From contig MEKT01000039.1 of assembly GCA_001767435.1 (NCBI GenBank), positions 1-45,892 of the forward strand: a DNA stretch of 45,892 bases, written 5' to 3'. This document shows positions 6,736 to 34,103 of the stretch, in pieces. The notes beneath the pieces are model-generated. The model was not told the origin of the DNA and made no database searches. It saw only the letters and a program-made list of their open reading frames with translations. Position 1 is the first letter of the stretch. Each line of letters begins with the position of its first letter. This DNA comes from Acidobacteria bacterium RIFCSPLOWO2_02_FULL_65_29 (GTDB lineage Bacteria > Acidobacteriota > Vicinamibacteria > Vicinamibacterales > CAVVIG01). Position numbers and translations under genes: made by a program.

Positions 6736-6966
6736 TGCTTCGGTGCTTGGGTCGGGCCGCGGGTCTTCACTCGGCGTTATATGTCGTACCCCTGTTGGCG
6801 AAGACGACGTGACGAAGCTTCACGCCTGGATGCGTGGGGTGTGAAGTTGAAATCCGCCGCTCGACCCTCCGCTCGGTGCCCGCGATCACGAAATTCAACT
6901 CTCGCTCGTCATGGACTCGCTCCAGGGTCGCCGACTCCGCCGGATCGCGGGGCAAAACCTGAAGCC

Positions 6967-7029
6967 AAGCGGCCCAACAGCATCGTGCAAGGCCGCCTGA
7001 TTGGCGTCGGTGCGCAGGTCAGGTGGTGA
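6967..7029 (+). pseudogene. Extreme C-terminus of a TonB-dependent receptor (fragment 1)
   Basis: The frame encodes KRPNSIVQGRLIGVGAQVRW and a TGA. This matches the end of the intact receptor at 34040-34099 (RPNSILQGRIIGVGATVRW) and is almost identical in DNA to the fragment at 23397-23456. The preceding residues show no resemblance to a receptor, so only the last beta-strand survives. Confidence 0.75.
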
Positions 7030-7040
7030 GGAACGCAGCG
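6970..7040 (+). repeat. 71-bp direct repeat, left copy
   Basis: By eye, 69 of 71 positions match 23397-23467. The identity runs past the stop codon (TGA here, TAA in the right copy) into non-coding GGAACGCAGCG, so it reflects recent duplication or recombination and not just protein conservation. Confidence 0.85.
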
Positions 7041-7048
7041 GCGAACGC

Positions 7049-7094
7049 GGGGTCAGAGTGGGGTCGGAGTGGGGTCAGAGTGGGGTCAGACCCC
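7049..7094. repeat. GGGGTCAGAGT tandem array ending in a palindrome
   Basis: Four copies of an 11-bp unit, GGGGTCAGAGT, end in the palindrome GGGGTCAGACCCC. A three-copy version lies at 26870-26904, again just upstream of the TTCAAA palindrome of a TonB receptor unit. Confidence 0.9.
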
Positions 7095-7104
7095 GCGACC
7101 TGAG

Positions 7105-7197
7105 TTCAAAACTTTGAATCTGGGTCGTGTTCTCCGGTTCCCGACGGTTTTGCGACGGTTTTGTGCCTTGACAGGCCTGGCCACGCGAGCATAGGCT
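7105..7197 (+). promoter_or_regulatory. Palindromic operator-like site plus sigma70-type promoter for the OMP/TonB-receptor unit
   Basis: The inverted repeat TTCAAAACTTTGAA lies at 7105-7118. Fifty bases further on, TTGACA (7168-7173) and TAGGCT (7192-7197) are separated by 18 bp. The same arrangement occurs at 26917-27018 and 30946-31028 upstream of the other two receptor genes, which raises confidence that it is a shared control region. The regulator is unknown. Confidence 0.6.
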
Positions 7198-7279
7198 TTC
7201 AGCCATCATACCGCTGCCTAATTTAACCTGATACCGCGACGTCGATTCCTACCGATTCCGAAAAAGGAAGGAGTGAGAC

Positions 7280-7987
7280 GTGACGAGGTGTGGTGTCCTT
7301 GCGTGCATGCTTGCAGTCTGCACCCTTGGCTTAGCGCAGCCTGTGGTGGCGCAGAACAACGCCGGGGAGCTGTCCGTAGGCTACTCATTTCTGGCCAACG
7401 ACGACCTGGCCGTGAACCAGAAGAATCTGCCTTTGGGTTTCTTCTTCGATTCCGCTTTCGAGCTGAACGACTGGATCTCCATCGCGGGCGACCTGACCGG
7501 TCATTTCAAGCGTGGCATCGAGCCGAGCGCCTCCTTGGACCGAGTGGTCCCGCCGATTCAGACCCAGGACTTTCAGGCGTTTTCGTTCAACCGGCCGGAG
7601 ACCGGGTTCTGTTCGCCTCGTCTTCAGGACTGCAAAGTCCACATCCAGACGATCAGCGCGGTTGGCGGCCCGCGGTTCCATGTGCCGGCCGGGCGCGCGA
7701 GGCCGTTCGTCCATATCATGGCGGGGGCGACCCGCTCGCTCCGGAAGATCGAATTCTTCGGCCACACTTCGACAAATCTCACCATCCAGCCGGGCGGCGG
7801 GATCAGCGTCGACGTGACAGACTTCACGGCTATACGCATCCAGGGCGATTATCGGCGCGTATTCTTCCCCGAGCCCGACCAGACCAAGCCGGGAGACTTC
7901 CCCTCGCTGGTGAGTAAGGATGGCGCCGATTATCAGGATTTCACGATCTCTGTCGGTGTGGTCTTCAAGCTCGGTGAACGGCCGTGA
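7280..7987 (+). CDS. Outer-membrane beta-barrel protein
   Basis: A 235-residue exported protein of unknown specific function. It starts at a GTG preceded by GGAAGGAG at 6 nt. A signal peptide ends near VVAQ (residue 25), followed by alternating hydrophobic strands (ELSVGYSFL, ISIAGDLTG, FTAIRIQGDYR) and a C-terminal strand FTISVGVVFKL, which looks like an outer-membrane insertion signal although it is followed by GERP. Two cysteines in a mid-loop (FCSPRLQDC) could form a disulfide. It lies 56 bp upstream of the receptor gene and probably shares its transcript. It is similar in layout to, but not clearly homologous with, the barrel gene at 30216. Confidence 0.8.
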   Translation: MTRCGVLACMLAVCTLGLAQPVVAQNNAGELSVGYSFLANDDLAVNQKNLPLGFFFDSAFELNDWISIAGDLTGHFKRGIEPSASLDRVVPPIQTQDFQAFSFNRPETGFCSPRLQDCKVHIQTISAVGGPRFHVPAGRARPFVHIMAGATRSLRKIEFFGHTSTNLTIQPGGGISVDVTDFTAIRIQGDYRRVFFPEPDQTKPGDFPSLVSKDGADYQDFTISVGVVFKLGERP

Positions 7988-8043
7988 CCCCGTTAGGTTT
8001 TCGACGACATTCTTGGCTCGCTTTCAAGCAGGGAGGTAAAGGC

Positions 8044-11000
8044 ATGAGATCCGGGAAGGCTCTCGTCGCTGTTTCGTGCCTGTTGTTGGTGCCCGCCACG
8101 GCGGCGGCCCAGAGCTCAATTGCCGGCCGAGTCACCGACAACACCGGCGGCGTGCTGCCGGGCGTGACGGTAGAGGCCGCCAGCCCCGCGCTCATCGAAG
8201 GGACGCGCGCGGCTGTCTCCGACGGCAATGGTCAGTACCAGATTACCGATCTTCGGCCCGGGGTCTATAAGGTCACCTACACGCTGACCGGGTTTACCAC
8301 GCAGGTGCGCGAGGAGCTCCAGCTCCCGGCCGACTTCGCGATGACCATCAACATCGTCATGTCGGTTGGTGCCGTCGAAGAGACCGTGACGGTCTCGGGC
8401 TTATCGCCCGTGGTCGACACGCAGACCGTGCGCCGCACCGAAGTGCTGTCGCGCGAGCTGCAGGAAGAGCTTCCCACCGGGCGCGCCCTCTGGTCGTACG
8501 CGGTGCTCATGCCGGGCGTCCGGATTGGCCGGCCCGACGTGGGCGGTACCTCCGGGCACCAGCAGGTCGGCATAGAGGGCGCCGGGGCCGCGGGGGCTCA
8601 ACGGGACAGCGTGTACGAGATCGATGGCCTGGACATCAGCATGTACATCGGGGACAACTGGATGCCGTACCTCAACCCGATGCTGATAGCCGAAACGTCG
8701 TTCACCACCGCGGGGATCGGCGCCGAGTCGCAGCGCGGCGGCGTGCGCATGAACATGATCCCGAAGGAAGGTGGGAACAGAACCAGCGGCAGCTTCTTCC
8801 TCGGCGGCAGCCCGTCGCCCGGCTGGCAGTCCGATAACTGGACCGAGCGGCTAGGCGATCTCGGGGTCCAGTCGAAAAAGGCGGGCGACGCGCGGGACGG
8901 GATCCCGCACATCGACAGGCTCTACGATCTCAACTTCGAGATCGGCGGCCCAATCTTCCAGGATCGCTTGTGGTATCACGCCTCGTCGCGCCGCCTCGTC
9001 GTCAACAACCAGGTGCTCAACAGCGTGAAGCGCGACGGGAGCAAGGGGCTCGACACCAACAGCTTGACGGACGCTGGCGTGCGCCTGACCTGGCAAGCCA
9101 GCCCGAGCAACAAGCTTTCCGCCGGGTTCGACAAGCTGCGGAAGCGGCGGTTCACCCAGCACGAGGCGGGAACGGACGTGGATACGGCGTCGACGTCCTG
9201 GACCTCCCCCCACTACGACACCGGGACAGCGAAGTGGACGTCGACGGTCACCAATCGCCTGTTGGCCGAGTTCGGCTTTTCGCTGTCGTACCAGGATTGG
9301 GACCCGAGCTATCAGGAGGGCATACGGCGGCAAGTGCCGGCCGCGTTCGAGCCTTGTTTCGCCACGCCGTGCTTTCCGGCCGTCGGCTCACCGGCCGCTC
9401 TCGCGCAAATGGACCGCGACGGCTGGTACGGCGTCGTCAATCGCAACGACGCATGGCTGGGCCTGCAGTACGGTGCGGCCGCCAACGAAACAGAAAACTA
9501 TCCGCATGCGTGGAGTTACAAAGGGTCGGTTTCGTACGTGACCGGCTCGCACAATATCAAAGTGGGGTTCCAGAACAAGTGGGGGAACCAGCGGCGTAAC
9601 CGAAACAACAATGCCAACCTCATCCAGCTCTATTCCAGTGCTCCGAGCCCCTTTGGCCGGCAGCTGGACTTCGTGGATGCCGATCATTTCGGCGCCGCCC
9701 AGAGCCTGGCCCGCGGGCTGCCGCCGGGCCTGATCGGCACCCCCAACCAGGTCACTGTCTATAACAACCCGGTGACCGCGCGGGGTGACGTCGAGTACGA
9801 CCTGGGCATTTTTGCGCAGGACTCGTGGACGGTGAACCGGTTGACGATCGGCTTAGGCCTGAGGATGGACCTCGCGCAGCCAGGGGTGCCTGAAAGCCCG
9901 AACCTCCTCGGCCGGTTCAAACCCGCAAGCACGTTTGCGGCAGTCGACCTGCCGCGCCTGGGCCCGGACTTCAGTCCGCGGCTGAGCGCGGCGTATGACC
10001 TGTTTGGCAACGGGAAGACGGCGCTGAAGGCCGGCTGGAACCGGTACATGTCGGTTATCGCGGACGCCATACCGAACCGCTTTGCGCCGGCGTTTTTGGC
10101 GCAAGAGAACCGGCCCTGGTTCGACCTTGCCCTCAACCCGGCCACCGGCGCACTCCATCCCGGCTGTACTCTTGCCAACCCCGCGACGTGCCCCAACCCG
10201 TATGGAACCAATGGCGACGACATCGCGCAGGACTGGGAGATTGGCCCGACCGCCAATCGCAACTTCGGCGTCCGGGCGACCAACCGGATCGACCCGGACA
10301 TCCAGCGGCAGTACAACGACCAGTGGTTGGTGGGCGTCCAGCACGAGCTCATGTCGGGCGTGTCGGTCAGCGGGACCTACCGCCGCCGATCCGACAAGGA
10401 GGTCTGGACTGCCAGCAGTTTCGGCGTGCTGCAGACGTTGGGCGACAACGTGCTACGGACCTCCGAGAGTTTCACCGGCTCCTCGGACGTCGCCCGTCCG
10501 GCCCCATACGCCGGGTCGATCCGGATCTTCAACATCGACCCTGCGCAGCGTGCGGCTCTCGATGTGCTGGATCGGAACGCGGCTCCTGGGTCGTACTCGT
10601 TGGTCTACGGCAGTTTCGATGTGGCCGTCAGTGCCAGGCTGCCGGGCGGGGGGAGACTCGTCAGCGGCTGGACGGTCGACAGGACCGCCGAAGACAAATG
10701 TCAGGACGTGCTGGACCGGGGTGACGATCCGAACGACCTGCGGTTCTGCAACCAGAATGCGTATCCGCATCCGTACGTGCACGAGATCAAGCTCTCGGGC
10801 AGCCTGCCGTGGTCCCTGCCCAAGGTGGGCGAGTTCAACACGGGCTTCGCGATCCTCGGCGTGCCCGGCGATGGGCTGGGCGAAGCGCTCAGATACAGCA
10901 ACAGCACCGCGATCAACAACCAGACGAGGTACCAGGGACCGTTCTACACAGTGGAGAACTGCGTGGCGCCGTGCGTGCTCAACGGCCGCATGGTAGGGGG

Positions 11001-11313
11001 CGCGACGGTCGGCACGAGCCCCTCCCAGTTCGATGCCACCATGCTGCCCGTGGACAGCGTGAAGTTCTACCCGAGGCTGACGCAGGTCGACTTCAACATC
11101 GCGAAGGTCTTCCGCATCGGGAGCTGGCGCTACGATGTACGCTTGGAGGCCTTCAACCTGTTGAACAACTCCGCCGATCGGACCCACGCCGGGGCGGCTC
11201 TCAACCGCGGCTTGGGCACGTCCGTGGGCGCACAATCGTTGACGCTCTACGAGCGAGCGACCAATATCATCGACGCGCGCGTCCTCCGCTTCGCCGTGAC
11301 CGGGCGCTTTTAG
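8044..11313 (+). CDS. TonB-dependent receptor with N-terminal carboxypeptidase-regulatory-like domain (receptor A)
   Basis: A large outer-membrane transporter of about 1089 residues of the Oar/SusC-like type used for import of oligomeric nutrients or siderophores. The ATG at 8044 has AGGGAGG upstream and starts a signal peptide ending in TAAAQ; the frame is open to 7984 but that start would bury the signal. The Ig-like CarboxypepD_reg domain (SIAGRVTDNTGGVLPGVTVE...) spans about residues 24-110, then VEETVTVSG resembles a TonB box. The plug covers about 120-255 and the barrel runs to the terminal ARVLRFAVTGRF. It shares general architecture with receptors B and C but is about 110 residues longer. 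The substrate is unknown. Confidence 0.92.
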   Translation: MRSGKALVAVSCLLLVPATAAAQSSIAGRVTDNTGGVLPGVTVEAASPALIEGTRAAVSDGNGQYQITDLRPGVYKVTYTLTGFTTQVREELQLPADFAMTINIVMSVGAVEETVTVSGLSPVVDTQTVRRTEVLSRELQEELPTGRALWSYAVLMPGVRIGRPDVGGTSGHQQVGIEGAGAAGAQRDSVYEIDGLDISMYIGDNWMPYLNPMLIAETSFTTAGIGAESQRGGVRMNMIPKEGGNRTSGSFFLGGSPSPGWQSDNWTERLGDLGVQSKKAGDARDGIPHIDRLYDLNFEIGGPIFQDRLWYHASSRRLVVNNQVLNSVKRDGSKGLDTNSLTDAGVRLTWQASPSNKLSAGFDKLRKRRFTQHEAGTDVDTASTSWTSPHYDTGTAKWTSTVTNRLLAEFGFSLSYQDWDPSYQEGIRRQVPAAFEPCFATPCFPAVGSPAALAQMDRDGWYGVVNRNDAWLGLQYGAAANETENYPHAWSYKGSVSYVTGSHNIKVGFQNKWGNQRRNRNNNANLIQLYSSAPSPFGRQLDFVDADHFGAAQSLARGLPPGLIGTPNQVTVYNNPVTARGDVEYDLGIFAQDSWTVNRLTIGLGLRMDLAQPGVPESPNLLGRFKPASTFAAVDLPRLGPDFSPRLSAAYDLFGNGKTALKAGWNRYMSVIADAIPNRFAPAFLAQENRPWFDLALNPATGALHPGCTLANPATCPNPYGTNGDDIAQDWEIGPTANRNFGVRATNRIDPDIQRQYNDQWLVGVQHELMSGVSVSGTYRRRSDKEVWTASSFGVLQTLGDNVLRTSESFTGSSDVARPAPYAGSIRIFNIDPAQRAALDVLDRNAAPGSYSLVYGSFDVAVSARLPGGGRLVSGWTVDRTAEDKCQDVLDRGDDPNDLRFCNQNAYPHPYVHEIKLSGSLPWSLPKVGEFNTGFAILGVPGDGLGEALRYSNSTAINNQTRYQGPFYTVENCVAPCVLNGRMVGGATVGTSPSQFDATMLPVDSVKFYPRLTQVDFNIAKVFRIGSWRYDVRLEAFNLLNNSADRTHAGAALNRGLGTSVGAQSLTLYERATNIIDARVLRFAVTGRF

Positions 11314-11318
11314 CCATG

Positions 11319-11386
11319 CTTGCACGACCGGAGCGTGTACGAACCTGTCGATTTCTGCCGTGCAACCACGGCTTAGCCGCGGCCGC
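11319..11386. repeat. About 69-bp inverted repeat, left copy
   Basis: This stretch matches the reverse complement of 11664-11732 at roughly four positions in five by eye, including GTGCAACCACGGCTTAGCCG against its GTGCGACCACGGCTTAGCCG partner. The right copy lies inside the CRTAC1 reading frame, between its signal peptide and first propeller repeat. Confidence 0.75.
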
Positions 11387-11400
11387 GAGAGCGGCCGCGG
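11377..11400 (+). terminator. Very stable GC hairpin downstream of receptor A
   Basis: CCGCGGCCGC and GCGGCCGCGG form a perfect 10-bp stem closed by a GAGA (GNRA-type) tetraloop, 64 bp after the receptor stop. There is no T-tract, so it may stabilise the transcript end or be part of the surrounding repeat instead of acting as an intrinsic terminator. Confidence 0.4.
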
Positions 11401-11405
11401 ATCTA

Positions 11406-11463
11406 CTAACGAAGGTCCGCCGCACGCGCTGGCACTCGTCGGTTTGAGGCGGAGCTTCGTTAC
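11406..11463 (-). repeat. GTARCGAAGCT...CGTTAG hairpin element
   Basis: The ends (CTAACGAAGGTCCGCC and GGCGGAGCTTCGTTAC) pair with each other. Read on the minus strand the element shares its first 30 or so bases (CGAAGCT, CGCCTCAAACCG, CGAGT) with the element at 42530-42596 inside the TMTC-like gene, so both belong to one family. Confidence 0.7.
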
Positions 11464-11564
11464 AAGCCGTCTCATCATTCTGGCTTTCCTCGGACCCTGG
11501 GGGAGGCGCCCGCCTCCTCCAGGCTCCGACGTGCTTCCTTCACCCGGCGTACTCTAGTGGCTTC

Positions 11565-13520
11565 ATGAACGGGCGCTTGTGCTCCAGCGCAACCGCTGGA
11601 ATTCTCCTTGTCGTTCTTGGCTCCGGAGGGCCCGGCGTCATATCCGGGCAACCGCCCGGCAACGCGGGCGCGGCTAAGCCGTGGTCGCACGGCGGAATTC
11701 GACACGCTGGTACGCAATCGGGCCGTGCGAGCACGGCTAGTGAAGCGTGGTTTACCGATCGGGCCAAAGAGGCGGGGCTCGACTTCGTCCACTTCAACGG
11801 GATGTCGGGCGAGCTCTATATCAGCGAGATCATGGGCGCGGGCGGCGCCCTGTTCGACTTCGACAACGATGGCGACCTCGACATCTATCTCGTGCAGGGC
11901 CAGACGCTCGGCCCGGGAAGGATATTGGATGACGCCCTGGTCGCGCCCCAGGCGTCGCTGCCGCTGACGGATCGGTTGTATCGGAACGACCTCGTGGTGC
12001 ACGCCGATGGGACTCGCACGCTGCGCTTCACGGACGTCACGAAAGGGAGCGGCCTGGTTGGGCGCTCCTACGGCATGGGCGTCGCAGCGGGTGACTTCGA
12101 TAACGACGGCCGGGTCGACCTGTATCGGACCGCTTTGGGGCCGAACCAGCTGTTTCGCAACAATGGCGACGGGACGTTTACGGACGTCTCAGACCGAACG
12201 CGCACGAGCGACCCCCGGTGGAGTGTGTCGGCGTCGTTCGTCGACATCGACCGCGATGGCTGGCTTGATCTCTACGTCGGCAACTACCTCGACCACAGCG
12301 TCGACGAGAGGATCCGCTGCTACACCCGCACGGGTAAGAGGGACTACTGCGGGCCCCGGAGCTACACGCCCGTTCCAGACCGGTTGTATCGAAATCGTCG
12401 GGACGGGACGTTTGTCGACGCGACCGCCGAGGCGCAGGTGGCGCGTGAGTATGGTCCGGCGCTCGGGGTTGTGGCGGCTGACTTCAATGCCGACGGCTGG
12501 CCGGATATCTACGTGGCCAACGACGGCGAGCCGAACCTCTTGTGGATCAATCAGCAGAACGGCCGCTTCCGAAACACCGCGCTCCTGGCCGGTGCGGCGC
12601 TCAACGGCCTCGGCAGCGCCGAGGGCAGCATGGGGGTTGACGCTGGCGACTTCGACAATGACGGAGACGAGGACCTCTTCATGACGAACCTCGTCGGGGA
12701 AACCAACACCCTCTACGTCAACGACGGCTCGGGCCTCTTCGAGGATCGGACCGCGCGGGTGGGCCTCGGGGTCCCAAGCCTGCCCTACACGGGATTCGGG
12801 ACGGCGTGGTTCGACTTCGACAACGACGGCTGGTTGGACCTGCTGGTCGCGAACGGCGCGGTCCGGATCCTGGAAACCCTTTCCCGCGCGACGGATCCGT
12901 TTCCGTTGCACGAGCGCAACCAGCTGTTTCGCAACCTGGGCACGGGGCCGTTCGCGGGGTCCCCAGCGCGCCCTTCGACCCTTCGACAAGCTCAGGGTCG
13001 CCCCGAGCCAGGTCGAGGGACGACGAGCTCAGGGCGTCCTGAGCCTGCCGAAGGACGGCAGCCGCGCTGGGGTGCCTTCGAAGACGTCACGGCGCGAGCG
13101 GGCGCCGTGTTCGAGCTGTCGGAGGTCAGCCGCGGCGCGGCATTCGGGGACGTGGACAACGACGGCGACGTCGACGTGCTGGTGACGAACAATAACGGTC
13201 CGGCACGCCTGCTGATCAACCATGTCGGCCAGCGCAACCGTTGGGTTGGGCTGCGGCTGGTCGGGGGACCGGAGCGCCGAGATATGCTGGGCGCGAGAGT
13301 GGGCGTCTTTCGTAACGAGGGCCCGCCGCTTTGGCGTCGCGCGCGAGCCGACGGGAGCTATGCTTCGGCGAACGATCCACGGGTCCTGGTGGGCCTGGGC
13401 AGTGCGACGACGGTTCCGCGCATCCGCGTAGTGTGGCCGAGCGGTCGTGCTGAAGACTGGACGGACGTTGCGGTTGGACGGTGGATCACGCTGACAGAAG
13501 GCAGCGGGGTGGGCCGTTGA
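11565..13520 (+). CDS. CRTAC1-family FG-GAP / ASPIC-UnbV beta-propeller protein (copy A)
   Basis: An exported 651-residue protein. A signal peptide (residues 1-29) is followed by a repeat-derived stretch, then integrin-like FG-GAP/VCBS repeats with Ca-binding DxDxDG loops (DFDNDGDLD, DIDRDGWLD, DFDNDGDED, DFDNDGWLD, DVDNDGDVD), and a C-terminal ASPIC/UnbV domain with RWVGLRLVG, LGARV and RIRVVWPSG. Such proteins are probably extracellular Ca-stabilised adhesion or scaffold proteins. About 36 residues (near 466-500) are encoded by a hairpin repeat and are missing in paralogue B (21429-23231). It is followed by the TPR gene with overlapping ends and then the copper-monooxygenase gene. No clear ribosome site precedes the ATG. 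Confidence 0.9.
   Translation: MNGRLCSSATAGILLVVLGSGGPGVISGQPPGNAGAAKPWSHGGIRHAGTQSGRASTASEAWFTDRAKEAGLDFVHFNGMSGELYISEIMGAGGALFDFDNDGDLDIYLVQGQTLGPGRILDDALVAPQASLPLTDRLYRNDLVVHADGTRTLRFTDVTKGSGLVGRSYGMGVAAGDFDNDGRVDLYRTALGPNQLFRNNGDGTFTDVSDRTRTSDPRWSVSASFVDIDRDGWLDLYVGNYLDHSVDERIRCYTRTGKRDYCGPRSYTPVPDRLYRNRRDGTFVDATAEAQVAREYGPALGVVAADFNADGWPDIYVANDGEPNLLWINQQNGRFRNTALLAGAALNGLGSAEGSMGVDAGDFDNDGDEDLFMTNLVGETNTLYVNDGSGLFEDRTARVGLGVPSLPYTGFGTAWFDFDNDGWLDLLVANGAVRILETLSRATDPFPLHERNQLFRNLGTGPFAGSPARPSTLRQAQGRPEPGRGTTSSGRPEPAEGRQPRWGAFEDVTARAGAVFELSEVSRGAAFGDVDNDGDVDVLVTNNNGPARLLINHVGQRNRWVGLRLVGGPERRDMLGARVGVFRNEGPPLWRRARADGSYASANDPRVLVGLGSATTVPRIRVVWPSGRAEDWTDVAVGRWITLTEGSGVGR
11664..11732. repeat. 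About 69-bp inverted repeat, right copy (in frame in CRTAC1-A)
   Basis: This is the inverted partner of 11319-11386. It encodes the low-complexity stretch between the signal peptide and the first conserved motif (WFTDRAKEAGLDFVHFNG). The two copies enclose a 277-bp segment including the start codon. Confidence 0.75.
12970..13061. repeat. In-frame REP-like double hairpin in CRTAC1-A
   Basis: CTTCGACAAGCTCAGGG pairs with the following CCCCGAGCCAGGTCGAGG, and GAGCTCAGG pairs with CCTGAGC; both are typical halves of the widespread CTTCGACAAGCTCAGG extragenic repeat. Here it is translated into the STLRQAQGRPE and SSGRPEPAEGR type peptide. The paralogue B sequence passes directly from RRTG to GFEEVTDRAG, marking an empty site. 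Confidence 0.9.
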
Positions 13521-15199: not shown

Positions 15200-17286
15200 G
15201 CCGTGCCGCGCGTTTCGGCGCTTCGCGATCGATCCTAACGGCGGGATTGTGTCTCGCGGCCGGTGTGCTCGCGGCAAGCGACGCTCCTGGCGCGGCTGGG
15301 CAAGCGCGAGCTGAAGCCGTCACCTTCAGCCGCGATATCGCGCCCATCCTGTTCGAGCACTGTGTGGTCTGCCACCGGCCAGGCGCGGTGGCACCAATGT
15401 CCCTGATGTCCTATCAGGACGTCCGGCCGTGGGCTCGGGCCATCGGAGAACAGGTCAGCTCGCGGAGAATGCCACCCTGGAAGCCCGAGCCCGGCTATGG
15501 CGGCCCGTTTGTCGGTAGCCGCCGGCTGAGTGACGAGCAGGTCGCGCGCATCCAGCGGTGGGTGGCCGAGGGCGGCGTTGAAGGCAATTCCGCCGATCTC
15601 CCTCCAATGCCGGAGCGGCCCGCCGGGTGGCGCCTCGGCAAACCGGACCTCGTCCTCGAAATGCCGCTCTACACGCTTCCGGCTAGCGGAAAGGATGTCC
15701 TCCGCAAATTCGCGATCCCGATTCGGATCGCCGGCACCAGGTATGTGAGAGGGCTGGAGTTTCAGCCGGGGAATGCCAGAGTCGTGCATCACGCGAACAT
15801 GAAGATCGATCCCACAGGGACCTCACGCAGGCTGGACGACGCCGACGCGGAGCCAGGCTACGAAGGGGTGACGCCGTTCGCCGCCCGGTTCCCGTCAGGC
15901 TACTTCCTCGGCTGGACGCCCGGGCAGCTGCGGCCTCTAGCTCCCGACAGCATGGCCTGGCGTTTGGACCCCGGGGCTGCCATGCTGCTCGAGCTCCACC
16001 TGACGCCAGGCGAACAGCCGGAGCGCGTGCAGAGTCGGATCGGGTTCTTCTTCACTGACGCGGCACCCACACGCATCCCGGCCACCATCAGGTTGGGCCG
16101 GCAGAATCTCGACATCCCGGCAGGCGCGAGGGAATATGTGAGCCGTGATCGCTATGTCCTGCCGGTGGACGTCGAGGTGTACGGGGTCCAGCCGCACGCG
16201 CACTACCTGGCCAGGGAGGTCAAAGGATTCGCCACGCTCCCCGATGGGACGCGGACGTGGCTCATCTACATCAATGATTGGGATTTCGACTGGCAGGACT
16301 TCTACGCGTACGCAAAGCCGTTCGTCCTTCCCAAGGGAACCGAGCTCGCGATGGAGATCACGTACGACAACTCCGCCGGCAACCGGCGCAACCCGCATTC
16401 TCCGCCGAGGCGTGTCAGCTGGGGTCAGAAGTCCTCGAACGAGATGGGGGACTTGTGGATTCAGGTCGTGCCGCGCAAGGCCGCGGATCTCGCAATCCTC
16501 AACAACGACCGCTGGCCACGAGAGGTGGCCGAAGATATCGTGGGATTCGAGATGGTTTTGGAAGAGGACCCGGATCAGGTGATGCAGCATGACGAGGTGG
16601 CGCTCCTGTACCTGCAAGTCGGGAAAGTCGCGGAGGCCGTGGCGCACTTCAGGGAGTCGGCGCGATTGCAACCAGAGTCCGCAGTCGCGCAGTACAACCT
16701 GGGAACCACGGTGTTGCGGCTGGGAGATGCCGAGACGGCCATTCGCCACCTCGAACAGGCGCTACGGCTGGACCCCGAGTATGTCCGGGCGCACAACGAC
16801 CTGGGCGCGGCGCTGCGATTGCAGGGGAAGTCGGCAGAGGCCATTCGTCATTTCCGCCAGGTACTGCTGGCACGCCCGGACGAAGGCGACGCGCTCTACA
16901 ACCTGGCGAGCGCGCTGACGGTGGAGGGTGAGCTCGAGGAGGCGATCATCTACTATCGACGCGCCCTCCAGGTTCAGCCGGATGCCTCGGCGGCGCTCGC
17001 GGAGCTCGCGTGGCTGCTGGCCACACACCCGAACGCGAGATTCCGGGACCCGAGTCAAGCCGTCCGCCTGGCGGAGCGTGCGTCTCGCGTGACCCAGCGT
17101 CGGGACGCCGCCGTTCTCGACGTGCTGGCCGCGGCCTACGCCGTGGCGGGCCAATTCGACCGAGCCGTAGCGGCGGCTCGCGCGGCGCTCGCCGTGCTCC
17201 CTGCCAGCCAGAGTGAGCTTGCCGCCTCGATCCAGCGCCGCCTGGATCTCTACACGACGGGCCGTCCGTACCGCGGGCCACGGTAG
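15196..17286 (+). CDS. Cytochrome c / PHM-type copper monooxygenase / TPR fusion (paralogue A)
   Basis: A 696-residue exported protein with three parts. First, after a signal peptide, a monohaem cytochrome c-like domain with C56-V-V-C59-H60 and a likely distal Met92 in MPPWKP. Second, a copper type II monooxygenase (PHM-like) core in which all six expected ligands are present: H198-H199 (VVHHAN), H268 (LELHLT), H334 and H336 (QPHAHY) and M417 (NEMGDLW). The spacings (69, 66 and 81 residues) are close to those of peptidylglycine monooxygenase (64, 70 and 70). Third, TPRs from about residue 455 to the end. Apart from the haem cysteines and one in the signal peptide there are no cysteines, so the disulfides of animal PHM are absent. 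It is coupled to the TPR gene by an ATGA overlap. The substrate is unknown. Paralogues start at 36716 and 39438. Confidence 0.88.
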   Translation: MSRAARFGASRSILTAGLCLAAGVLAASDAPGAAGQARAEAVTFSRDIAPILFEHCVVCHRPGAVAPMSLMSYQDVRPWARAIGEQVSSRRMPPWKPEPGYGGPFVGSRRLSDEQVARIQRWVAEGGVEGNSADLPPMPERPAGWRLGKPDLVLEMPLYTLPASGKDVLRKFAIPIRIAGTRYVRGLEFQPGNARVVHHANMKIDPTGTSRRLDDADAEPGYEGVTPFAARFPSGYFLGWTPGQLRPLAPDSMAWRLDPGAAMLLELHLTPGEQPERVQSRIGFFFTDAAPTRIPATIRLGRQNLDIPAGAREYVSRDRYVLPVDVEVYGVQPHAHYLAREVKGFATLPDGTRTWLIYINDWDFDWQDFYAYAKPFVLPKGTELAMEITYDNSAGNRRNPHSPPRRVSWGQKSSNEMGDLWIQVVPRKAADLAILNNDRWPREVAEDIVGFEMVLEEDPDQVMQHDEVALLYLQVGKVAEAVAHFRESARLQPESAVAQYNLGTTVLRLGDAETAIRHLEQALRLDPEYVRAHNDLGAALRLQGKSAEAIRHFRQVLLARPDEGDALYNLASALTVEGELEEAIIYYRRALQVQPDASAALAELAWLLATHPNARFRDPSQAVRLAERASRVTQRRDAAVLDVLAAAYAVAGQFDRAVAAARAALAVLPASQSELAASIQRRLDLYTTGRPYRGPR

Positions 17287-17324
17287 CGAAGCCTCACCTC
17301 GAACCACGGTTTTCGATTCCCTGT

Positions 17325-17444
17325 AGTCGACAGTCGACAGTTCACAGTCGACAGGTTTTTCACAATGCTGTAGTGTCCGCCTTTAGGCGGACCGGGCGCG
17401 AAGTCCGGCTAAAGCCGGACACTACGTGCTACGGCGTTGTGAAA
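17325..17444. terminator. Nested palindromes between convergent genes
   Basis: After a short ACAGTCG heptamer run (17325-17354) come two hairpins, GTCCGCCTTTAGGCGGAC (17375-17392) and GTCCGGCTAAAGCCGGAC (17403-17420). They are enclosed by longer arms, TTTTTCACAA...GTAGTGTCC and GGACACTAC...TTGTGAAAA. The position between the stops of the monooxygenase (17286) and GT39/TPR-1 (17450) suggests a bidirectional terminator, but the same palindrome family also occurs in frame at 19070-19087, so it is primarily a repeat element. Confidence 0.65.
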
Positions 17445-17449
17445 ATGCT

Positions 17450-19840
17450 TTAGCGGGCGGCGCGTGCCGCGCGCAAGCGCCGTTCCATCTCCGGGTTCCC
17501 GGGCGCAAGGCGCGTCGCCTCTTGATAATGTTGGATCGCGTCCTCCAGCTTGTCCTGGATCTGAAGGGCCATCGCGAGGTTGCCGTGCGCCTCGGCGAAC
17601 CCTGGCGTCAGCCGGATCGCCTGCCGAAAATGGTTGACCGCGTCATCGAGCTGGTTCTGCCGCGCCAGCATGACGCCCAGGTCATTGTGCGCGCTCGCTG
17701 ACTCCGGCACGAGCTCGACCGCGCGACGGGAGTGGATCAGGGCCTCGGCGAAGACTCCCGCCTGCTCGAGCGTGGACGCGAGGTTCATGTGCGTATCCGC
17801 CAAGTCGGGCTCGATCGCCAGGGCTCGCCGAAACAGCTCTATCGCTTCGTCGAGTCTGCCCTGCGCCGCCAGGAGCAGACCAAGATTGTTGACGGCTTCG
17901 ACGCCATCGGGGCTGAGCTCGATCGCCCGGCGATAGTGATCGGCCGCCTCCTCGGTCTGTCCGAGCGCCGCCAGCGCGTTCCCCAGATTGAGGTGCGCCT
18001 CGGTCAACCCCGGCTCGATCCGCACCGCTTCCCGAAACTGAGCGGCGGCGTCCACGATCTTCCCCTGGGCCATGAGCGCATTCGCGAGGTTGTAGTGGCT
18101 GTCGGCGTCGTTCGGGGCGAGATCCAGCGCCGTCCGATGCTGAGCGATCGCCTCGTCCAACTGCCCGTTGGCCGCGAGGGCGGTGCCGAGATTGCTGTGC
18201 GCGAGGGCGTCGTTGGGGTCGCGCGCCAGCGCCGCGCGATAGAGCACGATGGCCTCGTCGAGCTTGCCCTGCGCCTGAAGCTCGGTGCCGACATTGGCCT
18301 CCGTGATGGCCCGCATCTCCGCCATCGAGTAGATGGGCCAGTTGCAGAAGGCGGCGAAGACGATTGCCGCTGCCGGGCCCGAGACCAGCCGCCGCGGTGT
18401 CGCCTGCAGGAGCCGGCCGGCGTTCGCCACCCCCGCCGAGGCAAAGAGGATCAGGAACGGCACCAGCGGATACCGGTATCTCGCCATGACGGCGAAGGCG
18501 ATGAGCGCCAGCACATACGCGGCCGGCAGGAGATACAGCAGCGTCAGCTCGGCTCGTCGTTGCCACGTTGCCCAAATGCCGAACAAGGCCAGGGGCGCCA
18601 GGACCCCGAAGTGCCAGACCCGGCTGGCGACGCGCAGCAGGACCGACCAGTCGGCGTAGCTGAGCTGATCTTCGGTGTCGGCCACTTCCGCCGCGTTCCA
18701 GGCCAGCATGATCTTTCGCCCCATCAGCTCGAGCCAGTCTCCCGGCTGCGTCCGGATGTATTCGAGCGCGCGCCACGTCCAGTACCGGGATACCTCGGCC
18801 GGGGTCATCTGTCGGCCCATCGCCTGCTGGGCGAGTTCCATGGCGTCTTGACGCTCGTACTTGGGATCGCCATGACCGAATCGCAACGGCTCGTACGTGC
18901 CTGAGGCGGTCTCATTGTTCCCGATGTAGAAGTTCGGACCGAACTGCGACGTCGTCAGATGAAATTCACCGCTGACGAGTTTGTTCCGTGCCGCAACCGG
19001 CAGCAGGACGATCGCCAGCCCCAGGACGAACGCGCCCGCCTCGGCCATGCGACTCAGTCTCGCTGTGGTGTCCGGCTTTAGCCGGACCTTGGGGCGGAGC
19101 ACGATCCACAAGACGATCACTGCCACGAAGACCATCGCGTTCTCGCGGGAGAGCGCGAGGCCTCCCATGGTGAGACCGAGCGCGAGCCAGATCCTGCTTG
19201 AGCTGCCCCGAATCCGGCTAGAGCCGGATCCTACATTTGGAGGTGTTGAGCTGTGGCCCGCCTGACCTCGCTGCCCTGCCTGCCTTGCCTGTTGTGCCAG
19301 CCCGATGAGCAGGCTCAGCAGCGCGAGCGCCAGGCACAACAGGAACGCGTCCAGCACCGATTTCTGAATCAGGCCGTCGAAGAAGATGGCGGGAGCATAG
19401 AAGGCCAGCATCAGCCCGGCGGCGATTCCGGCCGGCTTCGAGAACAGACGCCAGGCGGCCAAGGCAAGCCACACGCAGGCGAGCGAGCCGATGACGGCCT
19501 GGCACAGCCGTACGGTCATCGGCGCCTCGCCGAGCAGCGTGTACACGAGCGCGAGGAAATAGGGATAAAGCGGTGCCTGGTAGAAGACGTCGCTGCCGAT
19601 CCAATCGCCGGCCGCGATCTGCTGCGCCCATGCGTGGTAGCTCTGCGCGTCGCCCATCAAGAGCGTGAAGAACGGCGCCCGTCGAATCTGGAACAGATGC
19701 ACCAGGCGGACGGCCAGGCTGACGAGGAAGATGGCAACCGCGAAGGGGAGGAAGGTTCCTTTTGGCGTCAGGGCGATCGTGGATTGAGAGGGGACGCTGG
19801 CGGGGGCGGTCAAGCAGGCTCCCTCAAAGGTGTTCGACAC
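17450..19840 (-). CDS. GT39-type membrane glycosyltransferase fused to TPRs (GT39/TPR-1)
   Basis: A 796-residue protein. The N-terminal half has about ten hydrophobic helices of the GT-C (PMT/ArnT-like) type, including RRAPFFTLLMGDAQSYHAWA, whose Asp in the first outer loop is the usual catalytic/metal site, then [14 protein letters not shown] and [15 protein letters not shown]. From about residue 500 there are roughly eight canonical TPRs. By family it should transfer a sugar from a polyprenyl-phosphate donor to an exported acceptor, with the TPRs choosing or docking the acceptor; this is inference. The GTG at 19840 overlaps the upstream TPR gene by 31 bp; a TTG at 19813 overlapping the TGA is an alternative. 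Repeat-encoded insertions lie in two loops. Confidence 0.88.
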   Translation of the reverse strand: MSNTFEGACLTAPASVPSQSTIALTPKGTFLPFAVAIFLVSLAVRLVHLFQIRRAPFFTLLMGDAQSYHAWAQQIAAGDWIGSDVFYQAPLYPYFLALVYTLLGEAPMTVRLCQAVIGSLACVWLALAAWRLFSKPAGIAAGLMLAFYAPAIFFDGLIQKSVLDAFLLCLALALLSLLIGLAQQARQAGQRGQAGHSSTPPNVGSGSSRIRGSSSRIWLALGLTMGGLALSRENAMVFVAVIVLWIVLRPKVRLKPDTTARLSRMAEAGAFVLGLAIVLLPVAARNKLVSGEFHLTTSQFGPNFYIGNNETASGTYEPLRFGHGDPKYERQDAMELAQQAMGRQMTPAEVSRYWTWRALEYIRTQPGDWLELMGRKIMLAWNAAEVADTEDQLSYADWSVLLRVASRVWHFGVLAPLALFGIWATWQRRAELTLLYLLPAAYVLALIAFAVMARYRYPLVPFLILFASAGVANAGRLLQATPRRLVSGPAAAIVFAAFCNWPIYSMAEMRAITEANVGTELQAQGKLDEAIVLYRAALARDPNDALAHSNLGTALAANGQLDEAIAQHRTALDLAPNDADSHYNLANALMAQGKIVDAAAQFREAVRIEPGLTEAHLNLGNALAALGQTEEAADHYRRAIELSPDGVEAVNNLGLLLAAQGRLDEAIELFRRALAIEPDLADTHMNLASTLEQAGVFAEALIHSRRAVELVPESASAHNDLGVMLARQNQLDDAVNHFRQAIRLTPGFAEAHGNLAMALQIQDKLEDAIQHYQEATRLAPGNPEMERRLRAARAAR
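19070..19087. repeat. GTCCGGCTTTAGCCGGAC palindrome in frame
   Basis: The palindrome encodes part of the peptide PKVRLKPDTTA in a loop of GT39/TPR-1. It is identical in type to the intergenic palindromes at 17375-17420. Paralogue GT39/TPR-3 has no insertion at this loop. Confidence 0.85.
19212..19229. repeat. ATCCGGCTAGAGCCGGAT palindrome in frame
   Basis: This palindrome lies in the loop following the LLIGLAQ helix of GT39/TPR-1. The same loop in the two paralogues carries the unrelated GGGCAAA heptamer array (26209-26277 and 35989-36036), so the loop tolerates different repeat families. Confidence 0.8.
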
Positions 19841-21432
19841 GGTTTGCGCTGTTCGTACAGTGCAAGGTTGCGGGCCATGAGTCGGGCCAGGTCAGCACGC
19901 CCAGCCTGCTCGGCGGCGGCGATCGCCCGATGCTGCCAGCTGACGGCCTCGTCGTACCTCCCCAACTCGGCCAGCGTCATGGCCATCGTCTCGCGGACAT
20001 CACCGCGCGGCGGTCCTTTGAGCAGCTCTTGCATCAGCGCCATCGCCTGATGCCCATCGCGAACCTGATCGTCTGGAGCCGCAGCGAGAAGGCGGACCAG
20101 AAGGTCTGTCAGCTCCGGTTCGTCCGGATGAACGCGCCTGGCCTCGCTCAGCCGGTCTCGGGCTTCCCGATAACGCTCCAGATGAACCAGCGTCATCGCG
20201 TACATCACCCACGCCTCGGCGAGGCTCGGATCGAGCTCGACGATGCGCTGGAAGTGGGGCAGCGACTCCTGAAGACGCCCGGTGACGCGCAGGGCCTCGG
20301 CCAGACCGAGCCGCGCCTCCAGATAATCCGGCTGGTACTTCACGGCGGCCGCGAAGCGCTCGATCGCCTCGGCATGGCGGCCCTTCAGATTGAAGACCAT
20401 GCCGAGGCCGAAATGCGCCCTTGGGAACTCTGGCGCCAACCGCAGGGCCCGTTCGAACTGCTGTACGGAGCCGGCCGTGTCGCCCGCCATGAACAACGCG
20501 GTACCCAGCCTGTGGAACAGCCCCGGGTCATCCGGTGCCAGCTCCAGACCTTTGCGGAACAGATCGGCGGCCTCCTTCACCTGCCCGCTTTCCAGCGCTC
20601 GCAGCCCTTGGGTCTCGTAGGTCAACGGGCTGTGCAGCACGGCCTCGTAGGTCTCCATGAGCGGATCGTGCGGGACCGGCCGCCCGCTTCCCCGCCGCTC
20701 CACGTGCGTTCTGGCCCGATCAAGCTGGCCTAAGCCGCGGTAGGCCGCCGCCAGGGAGTAGTGCAGGCCGAGTGCCCGCGGCTCCGCCGCCAACGCCCGC
20801 TCCAGATAATCGATGGCGCGTGCGAGATCGTGTTTCGTGAGGGCCGCACGCCCGGCGCCCGAGAGTGCCGCGGCGGAGCTGGGATCCCGCGACAAGGCCT
20901 GAAGGAACAACGGCTCGGCTTGGTCCGGCCGGTCCTGATCGAGGTACATCTCCCCGAGCCAGATCAGCGTCGGCGTGTCCGCCGGCTGCAAGCCCAGGGC
21001 CCGCGAGAAGAACTCAGCCGCCTTGGCCGCCTCTCCCTTGATCCGGTAGAGGTGCCCGAGATAGTAGGGCCATCGGGCATCGTCTGGGACCAACGCCTGC
21101 GCGGTCAGATAGCAGGACGCCGCCGCGTCGTAGTACTCGACGGCCATCAGAATCAGGCCCAGCTCTCCGTACGCATCGCCGAGCTCGGCGGGCGGCGTGG
21201 TCCGGCCCTCGAGTTTGGCCATCAGTGTCGAGTGCCGCTCGCGCACCTGCGCTTGAACCGACGTGGCCAGTCGCGACACGTCGGGCAGCGCGACGGGTTG
21301 CGCCGCCTCGGCCCCTCTTTGCCGAGAGCCTGGAGCAGAGACAGATGTCGCCAAACCGTCGTCGGGAGCACACCCGCCGGCCAACGTGGCGAGCACGCAC
21401 GTCAGGGCCATGAAACCGGCACGGCCCGTCAC
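19810..21432 (-). CDS. Exported TPR protein (copy B)
   Basis: A 540-residue paralogue of the TPR gene at 13481-15199, with the same PVALPDVS, DDARWPYYLGH and C-terminal NLALYEQRKPCRTP motifs. The N-terminus MTGRAGFMALTCVLATLAGGC ends in a likely lipobox (LAGGC), so this copy is probably lipid-anchored. About ten TPR units fill the rest. The GTG start at 21432 overlaps the CRTAC1-B stop by 4 bp (GTGA, 21429-21432). The end overlaps the GT39/TPR-1 gene, so the three genes form one translationally coupled unit. Confidence 0.9.
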   Translation of the reverse strand: MTGRAGFMALTCVLATLAGGCAPDDGLATSVSAPGSRQRGAEAAQPVALPDVSRLATSVQAQVRERHSTLMAKLEGRTTPPAELGDAYGELGLILMAVEYYDAAASCYLTAQALVPDDARWPYYLGHLYRIKGEAAKAAEFFSRALGLQPADTPTLIWLGEMYLDQDRPDQAEPLFLQALSRDPSSAAALSGAGRAALTKHDLARAIDYLERALAAEPRALGLHYSLAAAYRGLGQLDRARTHVERRGSGRPVPHDPLMETYEAVLHSPLTYETQGLRALESGQVKEAADLFRKGLELAPDDPGLFHRLGTALFMAGDTAGSVQQFERALRLAPEFPRAHFGLGMVFNLKGRHAEAIERFAAAVKYQPDYLEARLGLAEALRVTGRLQESLPHFQRIVELDPSLAEAWVMYAMTLVHLERYREARDRLSEARRVHPDEPELTDLLVRLLAAAPDDQVRDGHQAMALMQELLKGPPRGDVRETMAMTLAELGRYDEAVSWQHRAIAAAEQAGRADLARLMARNLALYEQRKPCRTPLREPA

Positions 21433-23231
21433 CGTCCTTCACCTTCCCTCAACGTCGTGTACCGATCGGCGGGCACCTCGGACCACGTTTCCACACGCCC
21501 GCTCGGCCAGGTGACCCGAACCCGCACGAGATCGGCGGACTCGCCCAGGCCGACGAGCACGCGCGGATCGTTCGCCGACGCGTAGCTCCCGTCGGCCCGC
21601 GCGCGGCGCCAAGACGTGGAGCCGTTCGTCCGCATGACGGCCACGCGCGCGCCGAACATGTCACGGGGCGCGGGCCGACCGACCAGCCTCAAGCCCAGCC
21701 AGTGGTTGCGACTGCCGATCTGGTTGATGAGCAGTCGAGCGGGCCCGGCCGCATTGCCGATCAAGACGTCCACGTCGCCGTCGTTGTCGATATCGCCGAA
21801 CGCTGCCCCGCGACTCACTTCCGACAGCTGGAACACCGCACCGGCGCGGTCCGTGACCTCCTCGAATCCTCCGGTGCGCCGGTTGCGGAACACCTGGTTG
21901 CGCTGCTGCAGCGGAAAGGGATTGTCGGGGCCGAGCGCCTCCAGATTCTGCGTGACGTAGCCGTTGACGGCCACGATGTCCAGCCAGCCGTCGTTATCGA
22001 AGTCTATCCAGGCGGTACCGAAACCGGTATAGGGAAGGCTCGGAACGCGGATGCCCTGCCGCGCGCTCTGGTCCTCGAATAGGCCCGTGCCGGTGTTGAC
22101 GTGGAGCGTGCTGGCCTGACCGGTCAGCTCCGTGATGAACAGATCTTCGTCGCCGTCGTTGTCGAAGTCGCCGGCGTCGACCCCCATGTTCGCCTTGAGC
22201 TCTCCGTTCGCACCCACCGCCACGCCCCATAACAACGCCATGTTTCGAAAGGTGCCGTCCTGCTGGTTGATCCACAACTGGTTTTCCTTCTGGTCATTGG
22301 CGACGAAGATGTCGATCCACTGGTCGCCGTTGAAATCGGCCGTGGCGACGCCGAGCGCGGGCCCGAACTCCCGCGCCAGGCCGGCGGCGGCGGTCACGTC
22401 CACGAACGTCCCATCGCCCCGGTTCCGATAGAAGCGACTCGGCTGCGCGCGATGCACGTCGGGCGGACAGTAGTCCGGCGGCCCGGAACGGTTGAAGCAC
22501 GACGTGGCCGCCTCGAGCGTGTAGCTCAGATAGTTCCCCACGAACAGATCGAGCCATCCGTCCCGATCGATGTCCACGAATGAGGCAGAGACGCTCCAAG
22601 AAGACGGATTGTCGGTTCCGGATCGCGACGAGATGTCGCTGAAGGTGCCGTCGCCCTTGTTCCGGAACATCTGGTTGCGCCCGAATCCGGTGAGATACAG
22701 GTCGACCCAGCCGTCATTGTCCACGTCCCCGGTGGCCACGCCCATGCCGTATCCGCGGGGATTCAGTCCACTGTGCTCGGTCACATCCGTGAAGTGCAGG
22801 CTCGCTCGCTCTCCGTGGCCCCCCAAGTCGTTCCGATACAGCCGATCCGTCAGCGGCCCTTTCGGCGGAGCGAGCAACGGCTGCCCGGTCCCGAGCAACC
22901 CTCCCTGCACGAGGTAGACGTCGAGGTCGCCATCGTTGTCGTAGTCGAACATCGCGACGCCGGGCCCCATGATCTCGGGTTGATAGAAGCGCCCGGACAT
23001 GCCGTTGAAATGGACGAAGTCGATCCCCGCCGCCGCCGCCCGATCGACGAACCACTCCCCGTTGGGCGCATCCGGCCGGACGGCGGACGCTCGGTCCGCG
23101 GCGTTCGAGGGTCGCGGTTGTTCCGCAGCTGGCGCGGCGGGCCTGGACGTGCAGGAGGCCGCTCCGCCACACAGGACCAACAGGAGGAACAGCGGCGCGC
23201 CGGGCGAACGGTCTTGCGGTCTCACGCGCAC
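21429..23231 (-). CDS. CRTAC1-family FG-GAP / ASPIC-UnbV protein (copy B)
   Basis: A 600-residue paralogue of 11565-13520 on the opposite strand. The N-terminus LFLLLVLCGGAASC reads as a lipoprotein signal. Propeller repeats carry Ca-loop motifs (DYDNDGDLD, DVDNDGWVD, DIDRDGWLD, DFDNDGDED, DIDNDGDVD) and the ASPIC/UnbV domain ends in RVRVTWPSG. It has neither of the two repeat insertions of copy A and so records the ancestral form. It is first in the CRTAC1 > TPR > GT39/TPR unit. GTG codons at 23231 and 23225 are both possible starts, and neither has a strong ribosome site. Confidence 0.9.
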   Translation of the reverse strand: MRVRPQDRSPGAPLFLLLVLCGGAASCTSRPAAPAAEQPRPSNAADRASAVRPDAPNGEWFVDRAAAAGIDFVHFNGMSGRFYQPEIMGPGVAMFDYDNDGDLDVYLVQGGLLGTGQPLLAPPKGPLTDRLYRNDLGGHGERASLHFTDVTEHSGLNPRGYGMGVATGDVDNDGWVDLYLTGFGRNQMFRNKGDGTFSDISSRSGTDNPSSWSVSASFVDIDRDGWLDLFVGNYLSYTLEAATSCFNRSGPPDYCPPDVHRAQPSRFYRNRGDGTFVDVTAAAGLAREFGPALGVATADFNGDQWIDIFVANDQKENQLWINQQDGTFRNMALLWGVAVGANGELKANMGVDAGDFDNDGDEDLFITELTGQASTLHVNTGTGLFEDQSARQGIRVPSLPYTGFGTAWIDFDNDGWLDIVAVNGYVTQNLEALGPDNPFPLQQRNQVFRNRRTGGFEEVTDRAGAVFQLSEVSRGAAFGDIDNDGDVDVLIGNAAGPARLLINQIGSRNHWLGLRLVGRPAPRDMFGARVAVMRTNGSTSWRRARADGSYASANDPRVLVGLGESADLVRVRVTWPSGRVETWSEVPADRYTTLREGEGR

Positions 23232-23261
23232 GGCGCCATATCATGACACGGGACCACCCCG

Positions 23262-23456
23262 GTCGGCTCGAAAGTCACCAGGACGTTTACGGTGGGCCGC
23301 GCTCGCGTGAGCCCCGCCCTGGAACTCTTCAACATACTCAACCCCGACAACATCGTCAGCGTCGTGACGAACAATTACGCGTCGGCATCGTACAAACGGC
23401 CCAACAGCATCGTGCAAGGCCGCCTGATTGGCGTCGGTGCGCAGGTCAGGTGGTAA
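23262..23456 (+). pseudogene. C-terminal remnant of a TonB-dependent receptor (fragment 2)
   Basis: The frame reads KVTRTFTVGRARVSPALE, then LFNILNPDNIVSVVTNN and ends RPNSIVQGRLIGVGAQVRW. This lines up with the last 62 residues of receptor C (KVTRTFRMGRVAVLPTLEAFNVNN and onward). Nothing upstream continues the barrel; the adjacent bases belong to the upstream region of divergent CRTAC1-B. A broken receptor, about 6% of the original length. Confidence 0.85.
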
Positions 23457-23467
23457 GGAATGCAGCG
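23397..23467 (+). repeat. 71-bp direct repeat, right copy
   Basis: This is the partner of 6970-7040, differing by two transitions as read here (stop-codon base and one base in GGAATGCAGCG). Together they bound a 16.4-kb block. Confidence 0.85.
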
Positions 23468-23477
23468 CTTGAAGCTC

Positions 23478-23632
23478 ATTGCAGGTCGCAGATTGCAGAT
23501 GCAGATTGAGTGAGAGAACCGCGGCATGCGGCCGATTGGAGTTTGTGTCCAAACATTCAATCGCGCAATAATCGGCAATCTGGAATCAATCTGAAATCTG
23601 CAAATCTGAACTCTGAACTGATCTGCAATCTC
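23478..23632. repeat. ATCTGAA/ATCTGCA heptamer arrays in inverted orientation
   Basis: A short run in one orientation (GCAGATTGCAGATGCAGATTG, split near 23484-23507) faces a longer run of ATCTGAA and ATCTGCA units at about 23577-23630 in the other orientation. The second run ends immediately before the TTG start of the GT2 gene. I see no promoter inside it. Confidence 0.75.
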
Positions 23633-23633
23633 G

Positions 23634-24422
23634 TTGAAAGTCTCCATCGTCATCCCCGTCTACAACGAGCGTCCCACGCTTGCCGAGGTCATCCGGCGCG
23701 TCGTCGCCGCACCGCTGCCTCCGGGATGCGAGCGGGAAGTGATCGTGGTCGACGATGGCTCGACCGATGGGACGGGCCCGCTCCTCGACCGCCTGCTCGT
23801 GGGCGGCATCGTGGTCGCCCATCACTCTGTCGTCAACGTCGGCAAGGGCGCCGCGCTTCGAGCAGGCATCGCGCGCGCGACAGGCGACATCATCATCGTT
23901 CAGGACGGCGACCTCGAATACGACCCCAGGGACTACCTGCGAATTCTGGCGCCGATCGTCGACGGATCGGCCGAGGTCGTCTTCGGGTCTCGTTTCATGA
24001 AGGACGTCAGAGCGGCGAACGTCAAAGGCGTGAAATGGCCGAACTGGATCGCGAACCGCATCCTGACAATTGCCGCCAACCTGCTGTTCGGCGCTCGAAT
24101 CACCGACGAAGCGACTGCCTACAAGGCCTTTCGTGCAGCCGTCATCAAGAGCATCCATCTCCGCTCGGTTCGGTTCGAGTTCTGCCCGGAGGTCATCGCC
24201 AAGCTTCGGCGGCTGGGCTACGTCATTCACGAGGTGCCGATCGGTTACAACGCGCGCAGCGTCCAGCAGGGGAAGAAGATCCGGTATCGCGACGGCCTCG
24301 AGGCGTTGTGGACCCTTCTGAAATACCGCTGTGTGTCGCGTCGGTCCTTCACCGTCGGGATTATGCCGGTCACGGCCGAGGGCGCGGCGACAGCCGATCG
24401 CGGAGCTGACGCGCGGCCGTGA
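23634..24422 (+). CDS. Glycosyltransferase family 2 (DPM1/polyprenyl-phosphate sugar synthase-like)
   Basis: A cytoplasmic 262-residue GT-A enzyme: [11 protein letters not shown] at the start, [20 protein letters not shown], the metal-binding QDGDLEYDP motif, and FGSRF. The lack of transmembrane segments and the overall length match dolichol-/polyprenyl-phosphate mannose or glucose synthases. The only in-frame start after the upstream TGA is TTG at 23634, directly abutting a heptamer array and lacking a Shine-Dalgarno. It converges on and overlaps GT39/TPR-2 by 53 bp. Inference: it makes the lipid-linked sugar used by the neighbouring GT39 enzymes. Confidence 0.9.
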
Positions 24423-26847: not shown

Positions 26848-26869
26848 TGTCGCCTGAGGGTAGCACTGT

Positions 26870-26904: not shown

Positions 26905-26916
26905 AACCGAGGCGAG

Positions 26917-34099: not shown

Positions 34100-34103
34100 G
34101 TTA

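Follow-up and report, generated by a model that had tools for sequence, protein, structure and literature searches.

The window analysed here, a 45,892-nucleotide stretch of the genome of Acidobacteria bacterium RIFCSPLOWO2_02_FULL_65_29, holds a block of receptor, CRTAC1 and TPR genes lying between two short direct copies of the end of one TonB receptor gene, receptor R. On the gene order of relatives the position of this block is derived, since both of its flanks have another neighbour there. The explanation we favour, held with about even confidence, is that a native receptor/CRTAC1/TPR cluster was brought into a receptor-rich locus by illegitimate recombination in several steps, and that the block is not a mobile element. 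The features on which the argument turns are as follows.

4781-6589, + strand: acyl-CoA dehydrogenase (ACAD), the last intact gene of the left flank fadB-fadD-SDR-ACAD (Pfam; orthologues with the same neighbours in nine relatives)
6580-6648, no strand: period-8 word array ATTTGAGG at the junction of ACAD and the transporter relic
6659-6722, - strand: 5' remnant of an MFS transporter gene, inverted and cut after about 25 codons (DNA identity to relatives)
6723-6965, no strand: sequence between the transporter relic and the left receptor stub, with a 65-codon minus-strand frame
6966-7040, + strand: left repeat copy, with 20 sense codons from the end of receptor R, its stop codon TGA and 11 bp beyond
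7047-7098, + strand: GGGGTCAGAGTGGGGTCAGACCCC array, a repeat that is dispersed through intergenic DNA of this genome
7280-7987, + strand: first block gene, encoding a small outer-membrane beta-barrel protein (PF13505, E 4e-5, under the curated cut-off)
7984-11313, + strand: receptor A, intact, with CarboxypepD_reg and OMP_b-brl_4 domains (domain matches; orthologue on G024:C333, 73-74% identical)
11565-13520, + strand: CRTAC1a, with FG-GAP and UnbV/ASPIC domains (domain matches)
13481-15199, + strand: TPR protein (domain matches)
15196-17286, + strand: TPR protein with a weak copper-monooxygenase-type match (domain matches)
17450-19840, - strand: membrane glycosyltransferase-like (PMT_2) and TPR protein (domain matches)
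19810-21432, - strand: TPR protein
21429-23231, - strand: CRTAC1b, with FG-GAP and UnbV/ASPIC domains (domain matches; the DNA upstream of it is conserved with G024:C267 to about 23267)
23265-23268, no strand: junction of CRTAC1b upstream DNA with codon -62 of receptor R (alignment with G024:C267)
23268-23456, + strand: right receptor stub, the last 62 sense codons of R and stop codon TAA (profile positions 927-994)
23393-23467, + strand: right repeat copy (match to the left copy)
23634-24422, + strand: family 2 glycosyltransferase (GT2), found directly after an R-like receptor in G022 and G008

Two copies of a receptor end bound the block

The left and right copies are direct repeats, identical at 72 of 75 bases and sharing one exact run of 58 bp. 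The original prediction, which compared 6970-7040 with 23397-23467, gave 69 of 71 matching positions; that figure is correct, and the match reaches four bases further left. As had also been stated, both copies are the ends of broken receptors, the left retaining 20 sense codons and a stop and the right 62 and a stop, and the identity passes the stop codon (TGA on the left, TAA on the right) into 11 bp of non-coding DNA. Over the 60 bp next to the repeat in either direction, the 10-bp steps have 0-5 of 10 bases in common without gaps. Similarity is lacking on both sides of the left copy, which is an island of 75 bp.

A BLAST search of the whole 5.5-Mb, 239-contig genome with the repeat returned 13 matches at E <= 10, among which the two copies scored 136 and 123 bits (E = 3.9e-29 for the second copy). 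The third-best match, at 49 bits and 78% identity over 59 bp, is the end of an intact receptor at 31172-34099, and all others fall below 36 bits. The genome-wide count suggested earlier for the 71-bp sequence gives two near-identical copies only, so the sequence is not spread over unrelated loci, and its reading as a dispersed repeat was dropped. The copies are 4% apart and the nearest paralogous tail 22% apart, which argues that the duplication is recent. A tandem duplication of the whole receptor into two copies is less likely, since similarity ends 11 bp past the stop codon.

Gene order at the flanks in relatives

The 60 relatives searched all belong to genera other than that of the source genome. 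ACAD orthologues were found in nine of 26 other genomes (E <= 1e-180), and in all eight informative relatives the gene is followed on the same strand by the start of an MFS transporter gene; the ninth contig (G022) stops at ACAD. The fragment left of the block had been described as a broken transporter gene, a description borne out by its 78-91% DNA identity with that transporter start in the eight relatives, with the orientation reversed (82-91% over 55-74 bp in six relatives; 78% over 54 and 80 bp in two). The remainder of the transporter has no orthologue in the genome itself, where the best matches are at 27-31%, and Pfam gave no match for the 65-codon minus-strand frame within 6723-6965. 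Abnormally strong conservation of the inverted transporter start was considered and dropped, since the relatives conserve that stretch equally among themselves.

In G016 and G014 at least 13 kb fetched from ACAD onward reaches a receptor/TPR array, with no match to CRTAC1 or receptor A along the way; the frames between ACAD and this array in G016 are catabolic-looking genes. An R/recC-like receptor adjoins fadD in G007 and G021. Because ACAD is followed by other DNA in relatives, the block is not its ancestral neighbour.

On the right, the closest family members of the GT2 gene are in G022 (70%) and G008 (65%); a scan of genome contigs gave 80 named loci that encode this glycosyltransferase, the best at 64%. 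In both relatives with the right flank, again G022 and G008, an R-like receptor ends 141-183 bp before GT2, and the corresponding distance in the window is 177 bp. This receptor has a full 1013-codon frame in G022, and in G008 its frame runs off the contig start. The right stub is thus the remainder of a local receptor that has lost its body. CRTAC1b upstream DNA aligns with the CRTAC1 upstream region of G024:C267 to about 23267 and R starts at 23268, so that the two are joined directly; the junction has neither homology nor a common word and lies about 125 bp before the repeat starts. No fetched relative carries both flanks together, left and right being seen only on separate stretches, and a single-tail empty site was found in none of the fetched relatives, among which none has the two flanks together.

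Gene content of the block

The block is made up of eight contiguous genes: a small beta-barrel gene, receptor A, two CRTAC1 genes and four TPR-bearing genes, one with a PMT_2 membrane domain. It had been predicted to contain one intact receptor (A, 7984-11313) and both FG-GAP/UnbV-ASPIC (CRTAC1) genes, and it does. None of the eight is a recombinase, an integrase or another mobile-element gene, and replication and mobility genes are absent from the block. The widest gap between block genes is 251 bp (11314-11564), which leaves no room for a recombinase gene between them. There is no tRNA or tmRNA in the window, and an RNA element was rejected for lack of any Rfam match in 6500-24000. The GC content of the block (0.661) shows no contrast with that of the flanks (0.668 and 0.657). 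A search of 72,556 plasmid records with receptor A gave no match better than 28% identity, and viral contigs gave none; on these results and the flank-like composition a foreign island was rejected.

One contig of the relative G024 (C333) keeps the order of the first two block genes, the beta-barrel orthologue adjoining that of receptor A, and the start of a CRTAC1 gene, and a separate contig (C267) carries a CRTAC1-TPR-TPR run. Five block genes are 67-82% identical to G024, comparable to the 59-82% of left-flank genes against relatives. CRTAC1b has matches in 17 of 27 genomes, its own included (E <= 1e-60); CRTAC1-TPR pairs are common in the family, and a receptor stands beside the pair in several of the 16 loci fetched from these matches. 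By these comparisons the receptor/CRTAC1/TPR module is native to the family. Inside the block, CRTAC1a (11747-13400) and CRTAC1b (21543-23055) form inverted arms, 73-78% complementary and 8-11 kb apart, a possible substrate for inversion.

Origin of the arrangement

At least three joins are non-homologous: ACAD to the inverted transporter start, the DNA of 6723-6965 to the left stub, and the CRTAC1b upstream region to the right stub. Features of an illegitimate rearrangement scar are present in the direct joining of unrelated sequences at 23265-23268 and in the remnants of lost neighbour genes, namely the inverted transporter start and the receptor stubs. In the explanation we favour, one or more break-and-rejoin events would have taken out the transporter, the DNA that followed it and the body of R, and placed the block there. 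The left 75-bp copy would be a short duplicated patch of the R end, either templated filler or the residue of a second R copy. It lies beside the inverted 64-bp patch of the transporter start, a left scar that would fit repair with copied filler; the shape of the copy is what points to filler, and what is left of a second copy of R would fit just as well. The state of the site immediately before the event is seen in no relative, which leaves the number and order of the steps to guesswork. A comparable stub in G024, whose congener G016 keeps the receptor whole, adds to the case for this explanation; the 239-contig state of the assembly and the absence of lone tails among 38 receptor-like loci in G014 and G007 count against it. 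The 58-bp exact core would allow the 16,427-bp block to be deleted or circularised by RecA-type recombination.

The original prediction had invoked insertion or duplication through recombination between receptor 3' ends. The derived position, the two broken bounding genes and the non-dispersed 71-bp sequence agree with it, and it is supported in part. Its mechanism, recombination between the tails, is no more than possible: the left copy carries nothing of the receptor before codon -20, and the right end of the block joins R outside the repeat. The explicit form of such a proposal is Campbell-type single-crossover insertion, which leaves duplicated target homology at either end of the insert: the block, as a circle bearing an R tail, would have crossed with the chromosomal R tail, leaving one tail per side. 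The direct orientation, near-identity and restriction to two copies of the repeat, together with the derived position, are what it predicts, and 58 exact base pairs are a sufficient length for homologous recombination, so that the core is adequate. Such an insertion would leave an uncut target gene on one side, but the window has no intact gene on either side, only stubs of 20 and 62 sense codons, and the repeat stands off the right edge of the block; two earlier cuts in R would be needed, one on the chromosome (at codon -20) and one on the circle (at codon -62). The one-tail empty site is missing from the fetched relatives, none of which has both flanks, the block brings no replication, mobility or recombinase gene, and the plasmid (at most 28% identity) and viral searches with receptor A offer no carrier. 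We consider this insertion unlikely. A site-specific mobile element that used receptor 3' ends as attachment sites would likewise give a defined block with direct repeats at both ends, the plan of genomic islands flanked by att direct repeats. Here, however, the right copy begins 125 bp outside the block edge, and the 125 bp of R in front of it have no counterpart at the left copy; there is no recombinase or integrase gene nor space for one, no tRNA target and no contrast in base composition, and the genome has two copies only. We regard such an element as very improbable.

The arrangement could also be an artefact in which the 75-bp repeat, a mixture of strains or collapsed receptor paralogs misled the assembler into false joins. 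The source assembly is in 239 contigs, and the other clear stubs come from fragmented assemblies (G024 with 570 contigs, G010 with 450), none having been seen in the 1.19 Mb of G014 and G007. Against a chimera, the join at 23265-23268 offers no common word to deceive an assembler, and the copies differ by three bases, with an exact core of just 58 bp; overall we judge it unlikely, though a serious rival. Short receptor repeats in fragmented assemblies nevertheless serve as a warning of fragile or misassembled places. The favoured multi-step explanation makes the locus, crowded with receptor paralogs, an illustration of how modules are lost and gained, and the structure predicts a 16,427-bp deletion or circle.

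Receptor stubs elsewhere

Other receptor stubs exist. A 65-codon stub on G010:C101 lies upstream of a recB-like receptor, and on G024:C324 (L186, 2200-2620) a phosphotriesterase-family gene is followed by tails of 54 and 12 codons, different in type and separated by about 100 bp; in the congener G016 the receptor is intact, with a tail 91% identical to this G024 stub. On a 994-position profile the stubs start at 924 (G010), 927 (window) and 935 (G024), and other truncated receptors begin at 613 and 627. In G000 and G024 the tail profile gave 58 matches, nine with frames shorter than 150 aa; the head profile gave 95, of which one has a frame this short, at contig coordinate 99. Two of the nine short-frame tails are the window copies, the left of which was sub-threshold at recheck and was kept for its near-identity to the right. 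All seven matches outside the window were fetched, and three (G000:C100, G000:C79:21920 and G024:C412) were dropped when the full-length profile did not confirm them, so that six of the nine stand. An apparent stub on G010:C144 was dropped as a frameshifted receptor.

These tails raise the possibility that the receptor 3' end is a recurrent joint, at which genes repeatedly exchange or lose their bodies but retain the last 55-65 codons, either through a sequence hot spot or because the tail has a use of its own, perhaps as a terminator or regulator. The stubs starting near one point, the position of the G010 stub, also upstream of a recB-like receptor, and the surplus of short frames among tail over head matches favour it. 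Yet lone tails number 0 of 38 receptor-like loci (24 full span and 14 partial by profile) in the 1.19 Mb of long contigs of G014 and G007, so the family does not generally carry such stubs; other truncations begin elsewhere, a variable loop just before profile position 920 starts profile matches there regardless, and the sample is small and post hoc. A recurrent joint is improbable on this evidence, and the stub pattern across genomes may reflect chance, decay or fragmented assembly. Between the window stub and the G010 stub pN/pS is 0.47, similar to stub against intact receptor, and pS is near 0.6, values at which recent truncation and selection on lone tails are indistinguishable. A more far-reaching version, in which receptor 3' ends are exchange joints that leave a 55-65-codon footprint and the block continues to excise and reinsert in circular form by way of the 58-bp core, is distinctly improbable; if true, it would be a recombinase-free, genus-spanning means of swapping receptor/CRTAC1 modules.

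Related systems and other repeats

Among known systems, the SusC/SusD-type receptor shufflons of Bacteroides also rearrange outer-membrane receptor genes, by reversible inversions under a dedicated recombinase, whereas the window block has none. An article on homology-assisted illegitimate recombination (HFIR) describes small variable segments whose loci are particularly abundant in membrane-protein genes (PMC2884548). That process resembles the present case in having one side anchored in shared sequence and the other an arbitrary join; it differs in that its segments measure 20-500 bp against 16 kb here, that a native cluster is involved here rather than clearly incoming DNA, and that the anchor here is putative (PMC2884548). 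A literature search for truncated TonB receptors as remnants and recombination sites found no matching paper, and among the excerpts returned for CRTAC1 or UnbV with TonB receptors nothing was judged to bear on such clusters.

A query with the left junction gave 31 matches in the genome itself, most of them to the GGGGTCAGAGTGGGGTCAGACCCC element; its arrays at 7047-7098 and 26868-26932 each stand upstream of a receptor operon. Arrays of 7- or 8-base words occur at 4585-4632, 6037-6159, 6580-6648, 26207-26278, 34097-34147, 43590-43643 and 45129-45189, each with a word of its own, at sites after stop codons and between and inside genes. Within ACAD an in-frame linker array consists of GGGCAAA-type words, and the linkers of G016, G024 and G026 have CAGCCAC-type words instead. 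Intergenic TAACTGA heptamer repeats are described for Beggiatoaceae, Cyanobacteria and Bacteroidetes (PMC4679880). To the right of the block, two PMT/TPR genes (24370-26847 and 34203-36566) are 71-76% identical over several stretches, with patches at 26110-26264 and 25221-25291 reaching 88-90%, a difference from the background that suggests gene conversion.
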